Assembly: GCA_023511455.1 (NCBI GenBank) | Contig: JAIMBJ010000001.1 | Span: forward strand, 127,146-191,145 | Source: Bacillota bacterium | GTDB lineage: Bacteria; Armatimonadota; HRBIN16 | DNA: 64,000 nt | Direction of reading: 5' to 3' | Shown here: positions 3,546 through 55,299 of the stretch, piece after piece | Position numbering within the stretch: the stretch's first letter is position 1 | Layout of the letters: each line of letters starts with the position of its first letter | Made by a program: the position numbers and the translations under genes | Notes under the pieces: generated by a model | Seen by the model: the letters and a program-made list of their open reading frames with translations, nothing else | The model's database searches: none | Told to the model about the DNA's origin: nothing

Positions 3546-4886
3546 TTAACTGCCTGGTTTTCGGTATCGCTTGCCCACTTCATCCAGCACCAGCACCCAG
3601 TCTTCCTCTCGAGATTCTCCGACGGGGGGAGTGAACTCCTGCTCGCCGCGGCGCACAAACTCGCCAATCGGCTGCGCCTGTCCGTTGCGCGGGTTGAACC
3701 ACCAGGCGCGGATGTTTTTTCCACTCAACGCATCCAGATGGACCCTCACCGTTTTGGCCACCGGCAGATAGATGAAGGCGTAGCTACCGTCTGCCCCGCG
3801 CGCTGCCCGCACATGCTCTAACCCTGTGCCAGGGTCGCCTGCAATCAGCGACTGGTCTGGGATGCGCAGCAGCATCGGTCGCGAGAGCATCAACTGCTTC
3901 GCATGGCGCATCTGCGAAGCGCCGGGCAGGTGCAGGGCTTCTTTCCAGGCGGTACGGGCGTGGGAGATGGGTTTCCTCTTTCCGGGCTCATACATCTGCC
4001 AGATGTCATGGCAGCCGTAAGTATGTCCATGCGCCCCTGCCAGCAACGCCCAGTAGGCGGCGCGGCGCACATCGTGGTCGTTGAACCAGCCGTTTTTTGG
4101 GTCCCAGTTGATGGGATGGTCCTCGTAATTCGGTTCCCCGTCCATGCAGGGTTTGACGGGCTGCAGGCGGTAGTCCTTCTGTATCATCTCGTAATTGGGT
4201 ATCGGTCTGGCATGATGCCCCGACTGAAGCATATTGAAGTCCAGCCACTCTTCCCGATGCAGCCACTGCGAGCTGTGGTTTCCGCCATTCGGGTGGTAAG
4301 TGATGAGATGTGTTCCGCCGTCCCCGTGGCGCAGACCTTCCGCCATCGCCCGCCAGATGGCGAGGTGCGTCTCGGTATCGACAGGACGGTCGCCGCCCAG
4401 TATCCAGATGATGGGCTTATCCCGATAACGCTTTCCCAGAAACTCACCGTAAACGCGGGCATTTTCCGGGGTGAATATCTCAGGACCGACGCCCCACTTT
4501 TTGTTCACCTTGTCGCCCCAGGTAGGCAACATAGCGATGTATAGTCCCAGCTCCTGCGCGAGGTTCACCCCGAAGTCCACGTGGCGGAAGTATTCCTCGT
4601 TGGGCTGGGTGGGGTCATTGCGGTGAAGGGGGGTATGTGCATAGGCGTTCGGTGTGCCCAGCCCGTCGAGTTCGGCTAAAGCAACCGCCTGTATCACCGT
4701 GAAGCCTTTCGCGGCGCGGTCTTTCAGATACAGCTCCGTTTCCTCGCGCGTCAGTCGGTGGAACAGCTCCCACGCGGTATCTGCCAGATAGAAGAACGGC
4801 TTGCCCGTTTCGGTGACCAGGTAGCGTCCATGACACGGATGGTTCTCCTGACGAAAGACGTGCAGACGTGGCAGCTTTTTAGGCAT
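3546..4886 (-). CDS. DUF4038 / GH140-like glycosidase with C-terminal collagen-binding-like domain
   Basis: The 446-residue protein opens with the DUF4038 pattern GRYLVTETGKPFFYLADTAW (about residues 20-39). It continues through a TIM barrel with WILGGDRP and a C-terminal segment typical of the 'putative collagen-binding domain of a collagenase' (about residues 350-440). This arrangement matches GH140 apiosidase-like proteins that act on plant pectin side chains; activity is inferred from family resemblance only. No signal peptide is evident, so it may be cytoplasmic, acting on imported oligosaccharides. The dehydrogenase gene follows on the same strand. Confidence 0.75.
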   Translation of the reverse strand: MPKKLPRLHVFRQENHPCHGRYLVTETGKPFFYLADTAWELFHRLTREETELYLKDRAAKGFTVIQAVALAELDGLGTPNAYAHTPLHRNDPTQPNEEYFRHVDFGVNLAQELGLYIAMLPTWGDKVNKKWGVGPEIFTPENARVYGEFLGKRYRDKPIIWILGGDRPVDTETHLAIWRAMAEGLRHGDGGTHLITYHPNGGNHSSQWLHREEWLDFNMLQSGHHARPIPNYEMIQKDYRLQPVKPCMDGEPNYEDHPINWDPKNGWFNDHDVRRAAYWALLAGAHGHTYGCHDIWQMYEPGKRKPISHARTAWKEALHLPGASQMRHAKQLMLSRPMLLRIPDQSLIAGDPGTGLEHVRAARGADGSYAFIYLPVAKTVRVHLDALSGKNIRAWWFNPRNGQAQPIGEFVRRGEQEFTPPVGESREEDWVLVLDEVGKRYRKPGS

Positions 4887-4930
4887 CTGGTTCCTCCGTT
4901 CAACAACCCTTGTTTTACCTGACCCTCCAG

Positions 4931-4992
4931 CCCCCTTCCCTGAGAGGGAAGGGGGAGCCGCATCCCTCTCCTGTCAGGGGACAGGGGTGAGG
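4931..4992. repeat. intergenic GC-rich hairpin repeat, copy 1
   Basis: CCCCCTTCCCT (4931-4941) pairs perfectly with its complement (4945-4955) across a 3-base loop. It is followed by CCCTCTCC, a CCTGTC/GACAGG hairpin (4970-4985) and GGGGTGAGGTC. Related copies lie at 32040-32085, 33628-33702 and 39127-39184. All are between genes. Confidence 0.7.
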
Positions 4993-5077
4993 TCAAATGG
5001 TCTCAGACGTCGCCCGAAAAAGACCCCTGAGAACATCGATAGAACGAATGGAACGGAGATTCCTTCACGTGGAAGGC

Positions 5078-5956
5078 TCAGTAAACGTATGCCCCAGCGG
5101 AAGCCACATAGGCGCGATAGGTCGGAACCATCACCGCAACAAGCACCGCTGCCGTGACGACGACGCACAACGCAGCAACTACCCAGACCGACCTGCGCCT
5201 GAGTGGAGGAGCCAGCGCAAGGAAAGGGCTGAGTGAAGCCACTGCCATCGCGACGATGCGCCAGATGGGGACTGGTACGAAGGCAATAGCTTCCACCCAG
5301 ATGAGTCCCAGCATTCCCGCAAGGAACGCAACCCCGCCTGCTCCCGCGATACCCTTCAGCCGCCAGAGGGTGAGGGGCACCATGACACCGGCTACCGCCG
5401 CCACCGCACCGCTCATCTGCGAAAGGGACGAGCTGTTGGACCACAGCAGGATGAACCCACCGCCACCGGCGACCATCGAAAGGATGAGCGGCGAGAGGAA
5501 GCCCGGTTGCTCATCCGCAAAGCGTGCCTGAACACTCCACCATAGCCACCAGCCAGCTGCCAGAGAGGCTATCCAGAGCAGGGCGGACACCCCCTGCCAC
5601 ACGTTACCCACCAGCGGGCGCAGCACCAGCCACGAGACAACCGCCACCAAAACCAGCCGCCCAAGATGACGCACCAAAGGCTTCTGGTTCAAAAAGTGTT
5701 CCACGCCTCCCCAGATGGCAAGCACGACACCCGTAACAAAAAGCCAGTCGTTGGAGTCAACGGGCGGAAAACTGCGCGGCAGCCCGATGATGCGCCAGTG
5801 GGCGAAAAGATAGCCCACTGCAAGGGCGAGAGGAGTGCCCCCGTGAGAAGGCACTCCCTCCCTGCGCCACGCACGCCAGAAAAAGAACAGGAGAGTCGCC
5901 GCGATTGCCGCAGGCAGTAGTGCTCCCCAGAAAATCTGTTGCATGAGAAAAGACAT
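5078..5956 (-). CDS. hypothetical polytopic membrane protein, third gene of the arsR-yceI operon
   Basis: I do not recognise this 292-residue protein. It has about eight or nine hydrophobic segments, beginning with an N-terminal span (LLPAAIAATLLFFFW), short loops and few charges; it ends in YRAYVASAGAYVY. No catalytic motif is visible. The start at 5956 is supported by GGGAG about 5 bases upstream. It lies 12 bp downstream of yceI and 620 bp downstream of arsR on the same strand, so it is very probably co-transcribed. A link to a redox or isoprenoid-binding process is only suggested by the YceI neighbour. Confidence 0.65.
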   Translation of the reverse strand: MSFLMQQIFWGALLPAAIAATLLFFFWRAWRREGVPSHGGTPLALAVGYLFAHWRIIGLPRSFPPVDSNDWLFVTGVVLAIWGGVEHFLNQKPLVRHLGRLVLVAVVSWLVLRPLVGNVWQGVSALLWIASLAAGWWLWWSVQARFADEQPGFLSPLILSMVAGGGGFILLWSNSSSLSQMSGAVAAVAGVMVPLTLWRLKGIAGAGGVAFLAGMLGLIWVEAIAFVPVPIWRIVAMAVASLSPFLALAPPLRRRSVWVVAALCVVVTAAVLVAVMVPTYRAYVASAGAYVY

Positions 5957-5968
5957 CCGTTGCTCCCG

Positions 5969-6544
5969 CTATCGCATTGCCTCGATGCTGAGGGTTACCC
6001 GCACATCATCTCCCAGACCGGGCAATCCGTACCGGATACCGAACTCACTGCGCCGGATGGTGAACGTCGTCTCGAAGCCAATGATGTCTCTACCCTGTGC
6101 GTTCTTCCCCTTGCCGGTCAGGGTCACGTTCGCCGTGATGGGTCGGGTGACTCCGCGCATGGTCAGGTCGCCCCGCACCTGCACGGTGTTCGCGTTCACA
6201 CGACGAATTTCGGTACTCCTGAAGGTTATCGTTGGGAACTGTCGGGTGTTGAAAAAGTCCGGGCTGCGCAGGTGATTGTCGCGCTGTTGGTTGTTGGTGT
6301 TGACGCTGTCAGCGTCTACCTCGATGTTGATGGAGCTGCGGGCAGGGTTCGCCTCGTCCACCACCACTGTGCCCTTCATGCTGGTAAACATCCCGTAGAC
6401 GTAAGCGGTGTTCATGTGCTTCACGCGGAACACCAGCGAGCTGTGCACCGGGTCGATCTGGTAGGTTTGCGCTGCTACCGGCACACCGGCGGAGATACTC
6501 CACAGGAGCATCGTCACGGCAAAAGCTTGCAACATGGTCTTCAT
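5969..6544 (-). CDS. YceI family periplasmic protein
   Basis: The 191-residue protein begins with a signal peptide (basic start, hydrophobic core at residues about 6-22, cleavage near VAAQ). The YceI lipocalin-like pattern follows: YQIDPVHSSLVFRVKH, then the paired strands with GDLTMRGVTRPI. YceI proteins form a beta barrel that binds polyisoprenoid chains in the periplasm or secreted space. Physiological roles vary and are often stress-related. The start is supported by GGAGGAGGA about 7 bases upstream. The gene follows arsR by 32 bp, so the ArsR regulator probably controls it. Confidence 0.92.
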   Translation of the reverse strand: MKTMLQAFAVTMLLWSISAGVPVAAQTYQIDPVHSSLVFRVKHMNTAYVYGMFTSMKGTVVVDEANPARSSINIEVDADSVNTNNQQRDNHLRSPDFFNTRQFPTITFRSTEIRRVNANTVQVRGDLTMRGVTRPITANVTLTGKGKNAQGRDIIGFETTFTIRRSEFGIRYGLPGLGDDVRVTLSIEAMR

Positions 6545-6576
6545 GCGTCATCCTCCTCCTCGATGTATTTCACGCG

Positions 6577-6876
6577 CTAGGGCGTTGTTACCGGTTCCTT
6601 GTTGCCGCCAAGCGATTCCATCAGGTTCTGCCCGAACTGCTCCACCGTTTCTCGGCGCAGGCGAAAGTAATGGTGCTGTCTGTGCTTGCGCATCTGCACC
6701 AGCCCTGCGTCCACCAGCTGGCTCAGGTGATGTGAGACGGTTGCCTGGGCGATGGGGAACAGCTCCGCCAGCTGCCCACAGGAAATCTCTTCCCGCTGCG
6801 CGATGGCTTTCAGAAGGGCATAGCGCGTCGGGTCTGCGATGGCTTTGGCGATTTTCAGCAGGCTCGCGTCGTCCAT
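6577..6876 (-). CDS. ArsR/SmtB family winged-helix repressor
   Basis: The 99-residue protein has the ArsR fold: IADPTRYALLKAIAQ (about residues 13-27), then helix-turn-helix with AQATVSHHLSQLVDAGLV and the wing MRKHRQHHYFRL. The alpha3 metal motif ELCVCDL is absent; only one cysteine (Cys33) is visible, so metal sensing through the classical site is unlikely. Redox, organic-ligand or simple autoregulation is possible. It heads the operon arsR-yceI-membrane protein. A CAAACGTTTG palindrome and flanking bases at 6891-6922, 15 bases upstream of its ATG, recur upstream of the flavodoxin gene and are the likely operator. Confidence 0.9.
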   Translation of the reverse strand: MDDASLLKIAKAIADPTRYALLKAIAQREEISCGQLAELFPIAQATVSHHLSQLVDAGLVQMRKHRQHHYFRLRRETVEQFGQNLMESLGGNKEPVTTP

Positions 6877-6890
6877 ACCGTCTCACATAC

Positions 6891-6922
6891 ATTCTCAAAC
6901 GTTTGTCTATGCTTCTATACGT
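6891..6922 (-). promoter_or_regulatory. putative ArsR operator upstream of arsR (copy A)
   Basis: The plus strand reads ATTCT, then CAAACGTTTG (6896-6905), GTTTGTCTAT (6901-6910) and CTATACGT (6915-6922). About 26 of 32 positions match the element at 8906-8938 upstream of the flavodoxin gene, in the same orientation and at the same distance from the start codon (14-15 bases). No convincing -35 is visible around it. Confidence 0.55.
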
Positions 6923-7049
6923 CGATGTAGCAATGAAAAGTTCCCCATGAGGAACGCCGCTTTTAGAGAATTCGTAATATGTAGTGTGTTTAAGTATATG
7001 CAATATGTCCGAGTGCGCCCGTTCTCCCGAATCCAGAAGGAGGTTTGAG

Positions 7050-8351
7050 ATGACCGAGAAGCAGGTGCATGTGGTGGTTCTGGGAGCGGGGTTCGGTGGA
7101 CTGAGCGCAGTACGACAGCTTGCCCGCAACCGCAACGTGCGGGTAACGTTGATAGATAGAAACAACCACCACCTTTTCCAACCACTGTTGTATCAGGTGG
7201 CAATCGCCGGTCTGGAAGCACCTCAGATTGCGTGGCCTGTTCGCGCCATGCTACGCCGCTATCCCAACGTGCGCTTCCTGATGGGAACGGTGCAGTCGGT
7301 GGACACTCTTGACAGGCGTGTTTGGGTGGATGGTAAGCCTGTCTCGTACGACTATCTGGTGGTGGCGATGGGCAGCACTTCGCACGACTACGGCATTCCG
7401 GGCGTTGGCCAGTATGCGCTTCCGCTCAAGTCTCTGGGGGATGCCATGCAGATTCGCGATAGAGTACTGTGCGCTGTAGAGGAGGCTGTGCGTACGGCAG
7501 ACCCTCTACGCCGACAGGCATTGCTCACCTTCGCCGTCGTGGGCGGCGGCCCGACAGGTGTGGAGCTGGCAGGTGCGCTGGCGGAGCTGAAGAAGCATGT
7601 GCTGGCACGCGACTATCCAGAGGTTGGCCTGCATGAGGTACGGGTTATGCTGATAGAAGCCAGTGACCGTCTGCTGTCGTACCTGTCGTCTTCCGCTTCG
7701 GATTACACGATGCAAGCCCTGCAGCAGATGGGGGTGCAGGTGTTGACCAGCAGCCCCGTACAGGAGGTGACTCCCTTCGGGATACATATCGGCGGCAGCG
7801 GCTTCCTGCCCACTTACACCGTCATCTGGACTGCAGGAGTGAGGGGCGTGGCGTTACCCGGCCTCCCGGCTGGGCAGAATGGACGCATTCCCACCACGCC
7901 GGAGCTGCGCGTTCCTGAGGCTCCCGAAGTGTATGTGGTGGGCGACCTGAACGGGCTGGTGGTAGATGGGAAGCTATTGCCGCAAGTGGCACCCAACGCG
8001 AAGCAGCAGGGCATCTGGGCAGCGCGAAACATCTTGCGACGGATACACCACGAGCCGGAGCTGCCGTTCCGCTACCGCGACAAAGGTCATCTGGTGACCA
8101 TCGGACGACATTGCGCCGTCGGCGAGGTGAAGGGGCTTCGGTTCACCGGACGAGTGGCGTGGCTCGCGTGGTTAGCGGTGCACATCTACTACCTGACCGG
8201 GCTACGCAACCGCTTCATGGTGCTGGCAAACTGGATATACAGCTACTTCACCTACGATTTCGCGGTGCGGGTAATCCATGACAAGCACAGATTCCCGCAC
8301 CCGGATGAGGTGGAGAGGGACACGGCGCCCGACCTGGCCGCCCGCGTTTAG
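7050..8351 (+). CDS. ndh: type II NADH:quinone oxidoreductase (NDH-2)
   Basis: The 433-residue flavoprotein has an N-terminal FAD-binding motif (LGAGFGGLSA, residues about 9-18), then NNHHLFQPLLYQVA, a signature of NDH-2 and related enzymes. A second Rossmann motif VVGGGPTGVELAG (about residues 162-174) binds NAD(P)H, and VVGDLNG is the FAD-pyrophosphate segment. A hydrophobic C-terminal region with VAWLAWLAVHIYYLTG suggests membrane attachment. The enzyme passes electrons from NADH to quinone without pumping protons and could supply the Alternative Complex III encoded at 45-53 kb. ATG at 7050 is chosen because AAGGAGG (7038-7044) precedes it. Its TAG stop overlaps the flavodoxin stop on the other strand. 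Confidence 0.9.
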   Translation: MTEKQVHVVVLGAGFGGLSAVRQLARNRNVRVTLIDRNNHHLFQPLLYQVAIAGLEAPQIAWPVRAMLRRYPNVRFLMGTVQSVDTLDRRVWVDGKPVSYDYLVVAMGSTSHDYGIPGVGQYALPLKSLGDAMQIRDRVLCAVEEAVRTADPLRRQALLTFAVVGGGPTGVELAGALAELKKHVLARDYPEVGLHEVRVMLIEASDRLLSYLSSSASDYTMQALQQMGVQVLTSSPVQEVTPFGIHIGGSGFLPTYTVIWTAGVRGVALPGLPAGQNGRIPTTPELRVPEAPEVYVVGDLNGLVVDGKLLPQVAPNAKQQGIWAARNILRRIHHEPELPFRYRDKGHLVTIGRHCAVGEVKGLRFTGRVAWLAWLAVHIYYLTGLRNRFMVLANWIYSYFTYDFAVRVIHDKHRFPHPDEVERDTAPDLAARV

Positions 8352-8890
8352 CCCGTTCTGGTCTGTAGCGGATGCGCCTCGCGGTTGCCGTCCATGTAGA
8401 CCGCCACCCACTGCGCCAATCGCTCTCCCAGACGCTGGCAGGAGGCAATCTCGTTCTCGGAGCGGGGTTCCCCTGCCAGCACGGCTCCATAGTGCAGGGT
8501 GAACTGCTTGCCCACGTAGTCGGTCACGCCGAAAACGAGGAATCCGAAGTTCATCAACACGGTCAGGACGGTCATACAGGCAAGTTCGGCACCGCCGCCC
8601 CATCCGCCGGACGAGGAGAAAGCGCAGCCGATTTTGCCGTCCACCTTGCCCCAGATACTGCCGCCGACCTCGTCCCACCACTGCTTCATGCGCCACGAAA
8701 TGGTACCCATATTGGTCGGGGTTCCTACGGCGATGCCGTCGCACCACAGCAGGTCGTCTGCGGTGGCCTCATCCACGCTTTTCAGCCGAACCTCCGTGTT
8801 CGGTACGGACTCGGCTCCCTTTGCCACCAGTTCCGCCATTTTGCGGGTGTTACCCGAAGCGGTATCGTAAAGCACCAGCACCTTGCCCAT
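8348..8890 (-). CDS. flavodoxin-like NAD(P)H:quinone oxidoreductase (WrbA-like)
   Basis: The 180-residue protein has the flavodoxin FMN-phosphate loop VLYDTASGNTRKMAELV (T/S-rich, residues about 6-22). GTPTNMGTISWRMKQWWD and SSSGGWGGGAE follow, which resemble WrbA-type FMN-binding loops. Such enzymes reduce quinones by two electrons, or carry electrons. Its stop codon shares bases with the NDH-2 stop (TTAG, 8348-8351), so the two genes converge with a 4-base overlap. A repeat of the ArsR-gene operator lies 15 bases upstream of the start, suggesting joint control with the arsR-yceI operon. Confidence 0.85.
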   Translation of the reverse strand: MGKVLVLYDTASGNTRKMAELVAKGAESVPNTEVRLKSVDEATADDLLWCDGIAVGTPTNMGTISWRMKQWWDEVGGSIWGKVDGKIGCAFSSSGGWGGGAELACMTVLTVLMNFGFLVFGVTDYVGKQFTLHYGAVLAGEPRSENEIASCQRLGERLAQWVAVYMDGNREAHPLQTRTG

Positions 8891-8905
8891 TTCGCGTAAC
8901 CTCTT

Positions 8906-8938
8906 ATTCTAAAGATGTTTGTCTATATATCCATACGT
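8906..8938 (-). promoter_or_regulatory. putative ArsR operator upstream of the flavodoxin gene (copy B)
   Basis: The plus strand reads ATTCTAAAGATGTTTGTCTAT, with a second similar block CCATACGT ending at 8938. Blocks ATTCT, GTTTGTCTAT and ATACGT are identical to those at 6891-6922, with one base of spacing difference. Both copies precede minus-strand genes by about 15 bases. No other gap I examined contains the GTTTGTCTAT core. Confidence 0.55.
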
Positions 8939-8948
8939 TTTCAGGGAA

Positions 8949-9044
8949 GCAGGTGTTCCCTTGAAGGGATGTGGAACAAACCTGCCGCACGCCATCTGGG
9001 GGACGAAGCCGTTAACCGGCGACACTTTCCCGGATGTTGCCGGG
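8949..9044 (+). other. possible structured leader of the CBS-DUF1385 gene
   Basis: Three hairpins occur in a row. GCAGGT-GTTCC (8949-8959) pairs with GGAAC-aa-ACCTGC (8973-8985). GCCG/CGGC closes a 5-base loop at 9008-9020. CCCGG/CCGGG closes a 6-base loop at 9029-9044. No T-tract follows, so this is not an intrinsic terminator for either strand. It could be a regulatory leader or part of the control region. No known riboswitch fits (see rejected items). Confidence 0.3.
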
Positions 9045-9102
9045 TGACCTGTTACAAAATGCACCGGTTTCGAGGTATGCTATTACGAGAGGTTTATGCA
9101 AC

Positions 9103-10251
9103 ATGATGCTTTGGAGCCTGCCTGTGGAACGCTATATGACGAGTGTGCCGGTGCTTTCGCCGGACGACCCGCTGGCGAAGGCGGTTGCGCTGGCGCGAGC
9201 GGCTCGCACGGGCACACTTCCGGTGGTGCAAAACGGGCGGCTGCTCGGTGTGGTTGCCGAATCCGATATCGCGCGGGTGATGCAGCAGGGCGACCCGCAC
9301 CAGCAGCAGTATCTGCCCGTCAGCGCGGCGATGACGCGAGAGGTCATCTCTGTCTTGCCGTACACTCCCACCACGCGTGCCCTGCAGATAATGCAGGAGT
9401 ACGGCTTCTCCTCCCTGCCGGTGATGACGAAAGACGGCGAATATCTGGGTACCTTACTGAGGTCAGATGTGCTCGCGTTAACGTGCGAGACCGTACGCCC
9501 GCCGGTAGTGGGTGGAATGGCCACCCCGCTCGGTGTTTATCTTACCGGCGGAGGTGTACGTGCAGGGGCAGGGGATTTGGGTCTCTTCCTCACGGGTGTG
9601 CTGCTGATGGTGCTGAACTTGCTGGCTATCACGCTGGTCTACTCCGGGTCGCTCTGGATCCAGCAGCGCACGGGCTTCCCACTCCATGCCCTGTTGGTTT
9701 CGCCCACGGCATCATTGCTGGACTGGCAGGATTGGGTGGGCATTGCGCTGCGCGCCATGCCGGTAGTGCTGTTTCTGCTGTTTGTGCGGTTCTCTCCAAT
9801 TGCGGGCGTTCACGCGGCAGAGCACATGACGGTACACGCCATTGAGCGGGGTGAGCCGCTGGATATCGAGTACGTGCGTCGTATGCCCCGTGTGCATCCA
9901 CGATGCGGCACCAACCTTGCGGCGGGGGCGGTCATCTTCCTGACGCTGGCTAATCTGGATACCGGTGTCTATCAGGACCTGACGTTGCTCTTTGCTCTGG
10001 TCGCCACCCTGCTTGCCTGGCGTCCTGCCGGCAACCTGTTACAGGCGATATTCACCACGCGCCCCCCGAACGAGAAGCAGCTGCGCAACGGCATTGAAGC
10101 GGGCAAACAGCTGCTGCACCGCTACCAGATGCAGGGATACCGTCCGCTGACCCTGCGCGAACGGATATGGAATATGGGCATCCTGCAGATTGCCGCCGGG
10201 ATGATGGTCGTTTGGCTGTCGCTGGATATCCTGGGCTTCAGTATCTGGTAA
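9103..10251 (+). CDS. tandem CBS domains fused to a DUF1385 membrane protein
   Basis: The 382-residue protein starts with two CBS modules (about residues 7-62 and 68-122: VERYMTSVPVLSPDDP and MTREVISVLPYTPTTRALQI), which usually bind adenine nucleotides. A DUF1385-like region follows: VGGMATPLGVYLTGG, membrane spans near residues 165-190 and 205-235, HAAEHMTVHA (about 237-246) and HPRCGT (about 265-270), with a last span at the C-terminus. DUF1385 is a membrane protein family of unknown function; the His/Glu/Cys motifs are its hallmark. Fusing it to CBS domains suggests regulation by cellular energy state. The ATG at 9103 follows GAGAGG by about 10 bases. Confidence 0.8.
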   Translation: MMLWSLPVERYMTSVPVLSPDDPLAKAVALARAARTGTLPVVQNGRLLGVVAESDIARVMQQGDPHQQQYLPVSAAMTREVISVLPYTPTTRALQIMQEYGFSSLPVMTKDGEYLGTLLRSDVLALTCETVRPPVVGGMATPLGVYLTGGGVRAGAGDLGLFLTGVLLMVLNLLAITLVYSGSLWIQQRTGFPLHALLVSPTASLLDWQDWVGIALRAMPVVLFLLFVRFSPIAGVHAAEHMTVHAIERGEPLDIEYVRRMPRVHPRCGTNLAAGAVIFLTLANLDTGVYQDLTLLFALVATLLAWRPAGNLLQAIFTTRPPNEKQLRNGIEAGKQLLHRYQMQGYRPLTLRERIWNMGILQIAAGMMVVWLSLDILGFSIW

Positions 10252-15121: not shown

Positions 15122-15425
15122 GTTACATCTCTGCCTAGTATAGTGTAGCCAATCGCTATAATGATATACCTCTTAGCTACGTGTTGTCAAGGGTTGACGA
15201 GGGTGTTCGATTTGAATCCTCCAGACGCCTTATAGAGAGCGATGCTTCCCGTGTGCCGTGACACGCCTCCCCGCGCCGGGGACGTCAGGTGGGAGTTGGT
15301 TCACGAGAGGCACGCGAAACGCAGGCTGAGCTCTGTGTATTCTCAAACAGACTCTCACCATATCTTGACGCGCTGATATCCCCTGATGTACCATAGAGAC
15401 GCCTTGTTGAAAGGAGGGATAGGCG
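15122..15425. other. intergenic region between Rrf2 and the beta-propeller gene
   Basis: This 304 bp gap lies between divergent genes. It contains a promoter-like pair for the plus-strand gene (15365-15394) and a small TCCCCG/CGGGGA hairpin with a 3-base loop (15268-15282). Next to the Rrf2 start is an AT-rich stretch (about 15135-15175) where that gene's promoter and operator probably lie. I see no protein or RNA gene. Confidence 0.4.
15365..15394 (+). promoter_or_regulatory. putative promoter of the beta-propeller gene
   Basis: TTGACG (15365-15370), an 18-base spacer, then TACCAT (15389-15394). The -35 is good and the -10 moderate. Transcription would start near 15401, about 25 nt before ATG 15426; AAGGAGGG precedes the ATG. 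Confidence 0.45.
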
Positions 15426-52895: not shown

Positions 52896-52976
52896 CCTAG
52901 CCTCCGTCCTGGTTTGTGCTTTTTATCACAACCTGAAATGCATGTACTACCGCCGAATTGCTTAAAAAGGCTATCT

Positions 52977-54188: not shown

Positions 54189-55097
54189 TCAGTAAGCCAG
54201 TATCAACAGCAGTAACCACAGGGGCAGATACCCCAGTGAAGTGAACATCACTTTCATCGCCCGTTTGCCATCAGGTTGGCGCATGAAAGATTGCGCGGAA
54301 CGAGTGAGCCACGTCCCCAGAAGCAGCGCGCCTGCGGTGTAGAACCCCGAACGCCACCCCGTCAGGAACGGGATCAGACTGACAGCCAGCAACGCGAGCG
54401 AGAGAAGCCACATCATCCTGCCCACCACAAAACCCTCGTCGTCGTTGAATGGTACTAAGTGGAAGCCTGCCTCGTGGTATTCGTGCCGGTACTTCCACGC
54501 GATCGCCCAGAAGTGCGGAAACTGCCACAGGAACTGTACAGTGAACAGCAGAACCGCCTGCCAGCTAAGGGACCCTGAGGCGGCAGCCCATCCCGCCGCT
54601 GGTGGTATAGCGCCCGCTACCGCACCCACGACCGTACACCACGCGCTGACGCGTTTCAGGGGAGTGTAGGCAAGTACGTACACCAGCAAAGCAAAAGCAC
54701 CCAACAAGGCGGTCAGTGGATTCACTGTCAACCACAACACGACGATGCCCACTGCGCCCCACACCGTACTGACAATGGCCGCCTCTTTGGGGGATATCTT
54801 CCCGCTCGGAATAGGGCGGGTAGCCGTGCGGCGCATTCGGGCGTCGTGGCGCCACTCCAGCACCTGATTCCATCCGTTCGCCGACGCTATCACCAGCCAC
54901 ACACCTGCCGCGAAAGCCACAAGCACCGAAAACGGGAACACCGCTTGAGGAAGCCACATCGACGCCAGCGCGGACAGCCACACCAGCAGAGCCAGTCGGG
55001 GTTTGCTCAACTGCCAGTAAGCACATAGACGGGCGATGAGCACCGATGAAACGGACGTCGTCCATGAGTTGGGTGTTGCTACAAGTATGGACTTCAC
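54189..55097 (-). CDS. ctaB: protoheme IX farnesyltransferase (heme O synthase)
   Basis: The 302-residue membrane protein has the UbiA/CtaB motif ANGWNQVLEWRHDARMRR, with D85, then TRPIPSGKISPKEA. Later, HFWAIAWKYRHEYHEAG and VPFNDDEGFV carry the second Asp-rich site. The first site is more divergent than usual (ND is replaced by NQ). It adds a farnesyl group to heme B to give heme O for the oxidase. Heme A synthase (CtaA) is not in the window. GTG 55097 follows AAGGAG by 8 bases; the frame is open to 55145 but has no such site. Confidence 0.92.
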   Translation of the reverse strand: MKSILVATPNSWTTSVSSVLIARLCAYWQLSKPRLALLVWLSALASMWLPQAVFPFSVLVAFAAGVWLVIASANGWNQVLEWRHDARMRRTATRPIPSGKISPKEAAIVSTVWGAVGIVVLWLTVNPLTALLGAFALLVYVLAYTPLKRVSAWCTVVGAVAGAIPPAAGWAAASGSLSWQAVLLFTVQFLWQFPHFWAIAWKYRHEYHEAGFHLVPFNDDEGFVVGRMMWLLSLALLAVSLIPFLTGWRSGFYTAGALLLGTWLTRSAQSFMRQPDGKRAMKVMFTSLGYLPLWLLLLILAY

Positions 55098-55150
55098 CAA
55101 AACCGCTCCTTGATGCGAGTTTCTAGTTTGAGAAATATTTATCAATCCTA

Positions 55151-55179
55151 ATTATACTGATGTCATGGAGGCGAGTCAA
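55151..55179 (-). promoter_or_regulatory. promoter of the ctaB-sco-DUF420 operon
   Basis: On the minus strand TTGACT (55179-55174), a 17-base spacer, then TATAAT (55156-55151), within GTATAATTAGG. This is the best sigma70-like promoter in the window. The start site would be near 55145, about 45 bases before GTG 55097. Confidence 0.8.
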
Positions 55180-55299
55180 GACTCACGGGGCTGTTCGAAA
55201 AAGATACCAACAGGAAAGTACTGTCCTGCACGCACAGGGTGAAACTTTTGCCCCGACTTTTCCGTCAAACTAAATGGATGAGCAATTATCGTTGATACC

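Follow-up and report, generated by a model that had tools for sequence, protein, structure and literature searches.

The locus lies in a 64,000-nucleotide stretch of DNA, here called the window, and is occupied by a three-gene operon, a gene divergent from it and a flavodoxin gene. The first gene of the operon, arsR (6577–6876, minus strand), encodes a 99-residue ArsR/SmtB-type winged-helix repressor with one invariant cysteine, Cys33. Its domain matches place it in the ArsR/SmtB winged-helix family: HTH_20 (E=1.3e-16; 60.7 bits, cut-off 27), HTH_5 (47.2 bits, cut-off 22) and HTH_metalloreg (74.4 bits, cut-off 55). The second gene, yceI (5969–6544, minus strand), encodes a secreted polyisoprenoid-binding lipocalin-like protein with a full-length YceI domain (PF04264, E=2.3e-51, profile positions 1–150 of 150) and matches to the structures of PA0423 and E. 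coli YceI. The third (5078–5956, minus strand) encodes a membrane protein. Divergent from arsR is ndh (7050–8351, plus strand), for an NDH-2-like NADH:quinone oxidoreductase (Pyr_redox_2, 9e-45; NDH2_C, 6.8e-7). The flavodoxin gene (8348–8890, minus strand) encodes a flavodoxin or WrbA-like NAD(P)H:quinone oxidoreductase-like protein that is closest to the solved structure PDB 2ark (E=1.7e-87 over 171 residues) and more distant from the WrbA quinone reductases, which gave weaker matches; it scored 70.1 and 80.5 bits against WrbA NCBIfam equivalog cut-offs of 132.5 and 141. An Rfam search for an RNA element at the locus gave no match.

The original prediction was that a duplicated element ties the arsR operon to the flavodoxin gene. 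The letters ATTCT, GTTTGTCTAT and ATACGT are indeed common to 6891–6922 and 8906–8938 in identical order, and, as claimed, each copy precedes a minus-strand ORF, by 14 bases for the one starting at 6876 and by 15 for the one starting at 8890. The whole 3.85-Mb genome contains just two instances of GTTTGTCTAT-N0-12-ATACGT. The best ungapped 33-base match between the two upstream regions was 21/33, a level that 18 of 2000 Markov shuffles of these regions also attained. Judged from the window alone, the duplication is suggestive only; because the likeness there is modest, the case was decided by cross-species comparison.

Ten genomes of the genus were compared, nine of which hold both arsR and the flavodoxin gene; a Chthonomonadia bacterium MAG and Bacterium HR16 are among the close named records. 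ArsR orthologues are 68–78% identical in eight sister genomes, with an almost invariant recognition region (FPxAQATVSHHL), and the flavodoxin is 88–93% identical in eight sisters; yceI follows arsR in 9/9 genomes. The search of related genomes for the element, proposed as a check on the prediction, found a composite site upstream of both arsR and the flavodoxin gene in every one of the nine genomes that have both. The interval between the two genes was inspected by eye in two places (L066, 5500–7290; L068, 8540–10050): one sister carries an additional methyltransferase-like gene there, and in G006 a prepilin-like gene takes the place of NDH-2.

Alignment of the 18 upstream regions from nine genomes revealed a common layout: GGAAC(TT), 17–18 variable bases, YGTATWGA, ATAGAYRAACATCTTA and then the gene start. 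At arsR, on the minus strand, these parts are a −35 box of the ECF type, GGAACTT (6938–6944), invariant in the nine genomes; a −10 box, CGTATAGA (6914–6921), which reads YGTATAGA in 9/9; and an operator core, ATAGACAAACGTTTGA (6895–6910), the local form of the genus consensus ATAGAYRAACATCTTA. At the flavodoxin gene, also on the minus strand, the genus alignment gives a −35 box GGAAC (8955–8959) and a −10 box CGTATGGA (8930–8937), and motif and matrix searches give the operator core ATAGACAAACATCTTT (8911–8926). The spacer drifts (mean 0.26 bits per column at the flavodoxin gene), while the −10 box is held at 1.6–1.7 bits and the operator at 1.3–1.5. The operator forms an imperfect dyad, which begins within the −10 box and spans the expected transcription start. 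Its centre lies at about 6906.5 at arsR, a position common to the flavodoxin sites and to those of a second family described below: in all three sets the best dyad centre falls 14.5 bases from the first −10 base.

This architecture changes how the shared letters are to be read. ATTCT is peculiar to this genome. The palindrome CAAACGTTTG, put forward as the operator, is likewise private to this genome, the sisters reading AACATCTTA at that place. ATACGT is the promoter −10 box (ACGTAT on the minus strand), not simply a portion of an operator half-site, and GTTTGTCTAT, which reads ATAGACAAAC on the minus strand, forms the left portion of the operator, immediately downstream of that box. By the look of its sequence, what had been overlooked inside the shared element is an ECF-type promoter. 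Known ECF promoters include those of RpoE (GGAACTT-N16-TCTAA) and SigW (TGAAAC-N16-CGTA), and the GGAAC(TT) −35 box, the spacing (17–18 bases here, about 16 expected of the type) and the conserved CGTAT −10 box all agree with that type. A sigma-70 promoter was considered and rejected, the sole match in 4800–9200 being no better than those in shuffles.

We then asked how many promoters carry the operator. With one mismatch allowed, the operator motif matched 19 times across the ten genomes, and 17 of these matches precede arsR or the flavodoxin gene; the reversed pattern, used as a control, had six. As a guard against circularity, matrices were trained on the sister sites of one gene only. In the window, the arsR-trained matrix ranked arsR first (31.4 bits) and the flavodoxin gene second (25.7), and no other site exceeded 1.8; the flavodoxin-trained matrix placed the flavodoxin gene (40.9) and arsR (21.4) on top, with an unrelated site at 52963 close at 19.3. 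Overall, arsR and flavodoxin sites scored 23.6–35.2 against a best background of 9.3, ndh sites excepted, and the site is restricted to two or three promoters. The window sites at 15157, 52963 and 55131 were rejected as further members (6.7–9.3 against at least 23.6), as were weak operator matches in a sister genome (L209–L212), which we interpret as opposite-strand sigma-70 promoters. At 55000–55200, on the minus strand of the window, a textbook sigma-70 promoter (TTGACT-N17-TATAAT) is followed by TAGGATTGATAAATATTTC, which resembles the NDH-2 operator of sister species and scored as background.

Could the shared sequence nevertheless have arisen by chance, be a coincidence between promoter-like sequences, or stem from non-functional DNA that was recently duplicated? 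About 1% of shuffles reach the within-window similarity, as such an origin would allow, but nine species keep the element while the spacer varies freely, and the element recurs in other families. These comparative data overturn the weak in-window statistics and refute a chance duplication, to which we give hardly any credence. Judged by its conservation, the duplication is genuine and the element functional.

An ArsR profile detected clear orthologues in 12 genomes of a second family, f31, and in one genome (G108) of a third, f30. In all 13, yceI follows arsR, and the membrane protein is also present in f31; the arsR promoter and operator are kept in both families. In f31 the arsR promoter takes the form GGAACTT-N14/15-CGTATAGATATATGYACAACGGTCTATG, in which GGAAC is invariant, GGAACTT nearly so and CGTAT present in every site. 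With a site model built for f31, each of the 12 arsR-bearing genomes gave a single strong site (E ≤ 2e-9), whereas the six f31 genomes that lack an arsR orthologue gave none. The f31 operator differs from that of the genus in its middle; the f31 model had no match to the genus sites, and the genus model had one borderline match in f31. The likeness between the two was judged by eye and from the dyad position, each family's model barely or not detecting the other's sites. In the f31 loci L222–L229 the arsR start codon comes directly after the operator (GGTCTATG), leaving almost no leader, and a ribosome-binding site is not visible.

No flavodoxin orthologue was found in f31, and in other genomes neither the gene block nor the site accompanied the 74 homologues of the flavodoxin. 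The simplest history suggested by these distributions is that an old, autoregulated operon of arsR, yceI and the membrane-protein gene was joined in this genus by the flavodoxin gene.

The position of ndh is more complex. On the plus strand, promoter-like boxes GGAAC (6951–6955) and CGTAA (6973–6977), 17 bases apart, precede the gene, and GGAAC/GAAAC/GAGAC-N17/18-box is found at ndh in 8/8 genomes with a divergent ndh. The −35 boxes of ndh and arsR stand back to back as an inverted repeat, GTTCC-N6-GGAAC (window 6940–6955), which sister genomes keep with 6–8 bases between the halves. An operator-like site is present at ndh in five of the eight genomes (scores 5.8–16.6) and absent in the window's genome (score −11.4), G008 and G004. 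The original prediction had counted NDH-2 in the regulon; in this genome the gene has the promoter boxes and no operator, and its membership there is not supported. Because five genomes have an operator-like site and these three do not, we consider NDH-2 a probable member in some species, as judged from the sites.

The occurrence of the promoter at ndh without the operator (in G000, G008 and G004) bears on an alternative in which arsR, the flavodoxin gene and ndh too simply belong to one ECF sigma regulon, with recognition extending past the −10 box and no ArsR acting at the flavodoxin gene. The −35 and −10 boxes being the most conserved parts would accord with this, as would promoter-like partial matches elsewhere in f31. 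Such matches (GAAACTT/GGAACTT...CGTATAGAT, with no operator) were seen at L252, L253, L254, L257 and L258, among them one that precedes a small ORF of secreted-protein-like type (L258) and one before a large acidic ORF (L254), and it is possible that they are further members of an ECF-type promoter set. However, the −10 box is followed by some 16 bases that hardly vary, more than sigma recognition needs, and this downstream part is common to the two genes yet changes between families while the −35 and −10 boxes stay. In addition, searches with the promoter pattern by itself gave hardly more than chance matches elsewhere, and none of the genome's 18 sigma genes is preceded by this promoter, which also disposes of an autoregulated sigma gene as a candidate. 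We therefore hold a promoter-only explanation to be unlikely.

A related alternative is that some DNA-binding protein other than ArsR recognizes the element and governs the two genes jointly. The tie between ArsR and the DNA is indirect, which leaves some room for such a protein, but every arsR orthologue detected in the genus or in f31 has the site upstream, genomes lacking the orthologue have no strong site, and the conserved block contains no other regulator gene. We regard another binder as quite improbable.

Our preferred reading, which we consider likely, is a local circuit in which an autorepressing ArsR blocks the promoter type shared by its own operon and the flavodoxin gene. The operon and the nearby flavodoxin gene would be transcribed from ECF-type promoters, GGAAC(TT), 17–18 bases, YGTAT, presumably read by an ECF sigma factor. 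The 99-residue ArsR-type protein would bind as a dimer to the imperfect dyad with the core ATAGAYRAACATCTTA and keep RNA polymerase off both promoters, until it is released by a signal that Cys33, its only cysteine, may sense. ArsR/SmtB repressors usually control small, locally autoregulated regulons from sites overlapping the start site, and the predicted dyad over the repressor's own promoter and the tiny local regulon are alike here. The original idea of an autoregulated operator with a second regulon site thus stands in its outline, a narrow regulon conserved in nine species for which autoregulation is the natural reading, and falls in the choice of CAAACGTTTG as the operator and in the membership of NDH-2 in this genome. 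Membership of the arsR–yceI–membrane protein operon and the flavodoxin gene is well supported by the conserved sites.

What ArsR senses is constrained by its residues. By sequence it belongs with the winged-helix proteins SmtB (E=1e-12 by profile), CadC, CzrA and BigR/SqrR. Unlike these it has a single cysteine, which lies within E(I/V)SCGQL and is displaced by one alignment column from SmtB Cys61, and the classical metalloregulator residues (the α3 CxC and the α5 D/H site) are missing in nine orthologues, in keeping with the earlier remark that the classical metal-binding motif is absent. A metal site is not essential to the superfamily; its absence excludes the classical metalloregulators. 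The two conserved cysteines of BigR/SqrR are likewise not present, and the BigR model gave 37 bits against a cut-off of 155. Because there is only one cysteine and the α5 metal residues are missing, the sequence makes a metal or two-cysteine persulfide sensor unlikely; candidate signals would be oxidation of the single cysteine, adduct formation or a small ligand. The targets differ as well: ArsR/SmtB systems control efflux or sulfide genes, whereas here they are yceI, the membrane-protein gene and the flavodoxin gene.

The third gene of the operon had no match to any Pfam or NCBIfam family, nor any sequence match to MraY, WecA or DPAGT1. Its AF2 model (pLDDT 85.6, pTM 0.86) had MraY (TM up to 0.70, rmsd 4.3) and DPAGT1 as its top Foldseek matches, the other listed matches having TM <0.25, and MraY again came first when a homologue with 27% identity was modelled (pLDDT 75). 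Against MraY both models reach TM of about 0.5–0.7 and Foldseek probabilities of 0.99–1.00, but with E of 0.04–0.3. The MraY catalytic Asp pair, further Asp and His have no conserved counterpart, one Asp and no His being invariant in 11 homologues. As modelled, then, the protein has an MraY/WecA/DPAGT1-like fold without the conserved MraY catalytic residues.

YceI proteins bind isoprenoids, including ubiquinone-8, and isoprenoid or ubiquinone ligands are present in their structures; in the BcnA–LcoA system of Burkholderia a YceI lipocalin is coupled to a cytochrome b561 and answers oxidative stress (PMC9113575). A secreted YceI lipocalin beside a membrane partner is common to that system and this one. 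The partner differs: a cytochrome b561 was rejected for the membrane protein, which lacks conserved histidines and has the MraY-like predicted fold, and yceI here is under putative ArsR-type control, unlike in BcnA–LcoA. Because a polyprenyl-handling fold adjoins a polyisoprenoid-binding protein, we infer that an isoprenoid-lipid theme, including quinones, fits the locus better than the general redox stress response first envisaged.

Mechanistically this is an ordinary ArsR-type local regulon; its target set is unusual. A literature search found ArsR joined with YceI in one incidental match, and no combination with flavodoxin and NADH dehydrogenase. We tentatively suggest, as an idea that may well prove wrong, that a single-cysteine, non-metal ArsR controls a previously undescribed module for isoprenoid-lipid or quinone maintenance, made up of a secreted polyisoprenoid carrier of the YceI type and a catalytically altered MraY-fold membrane protein, to which the quinone-reductase-like flavodoxin was added in one genus. 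The analysis takes a visual hint in one uncultured genome to a regulon footprinted by conservation in the poorly studied phylum Armatimonadota, and this regulon offers testable single-base predictions. It places a putative ArsR-type repressor without a metal site over yceI, a kind of yceI regulator for which the literature search found no precedent, and the pairing of a polyisoprenoid-binding protein with a predicted MraY-fold protein that lacks the conserved catalytic residues provides a lead on the function of YceI.
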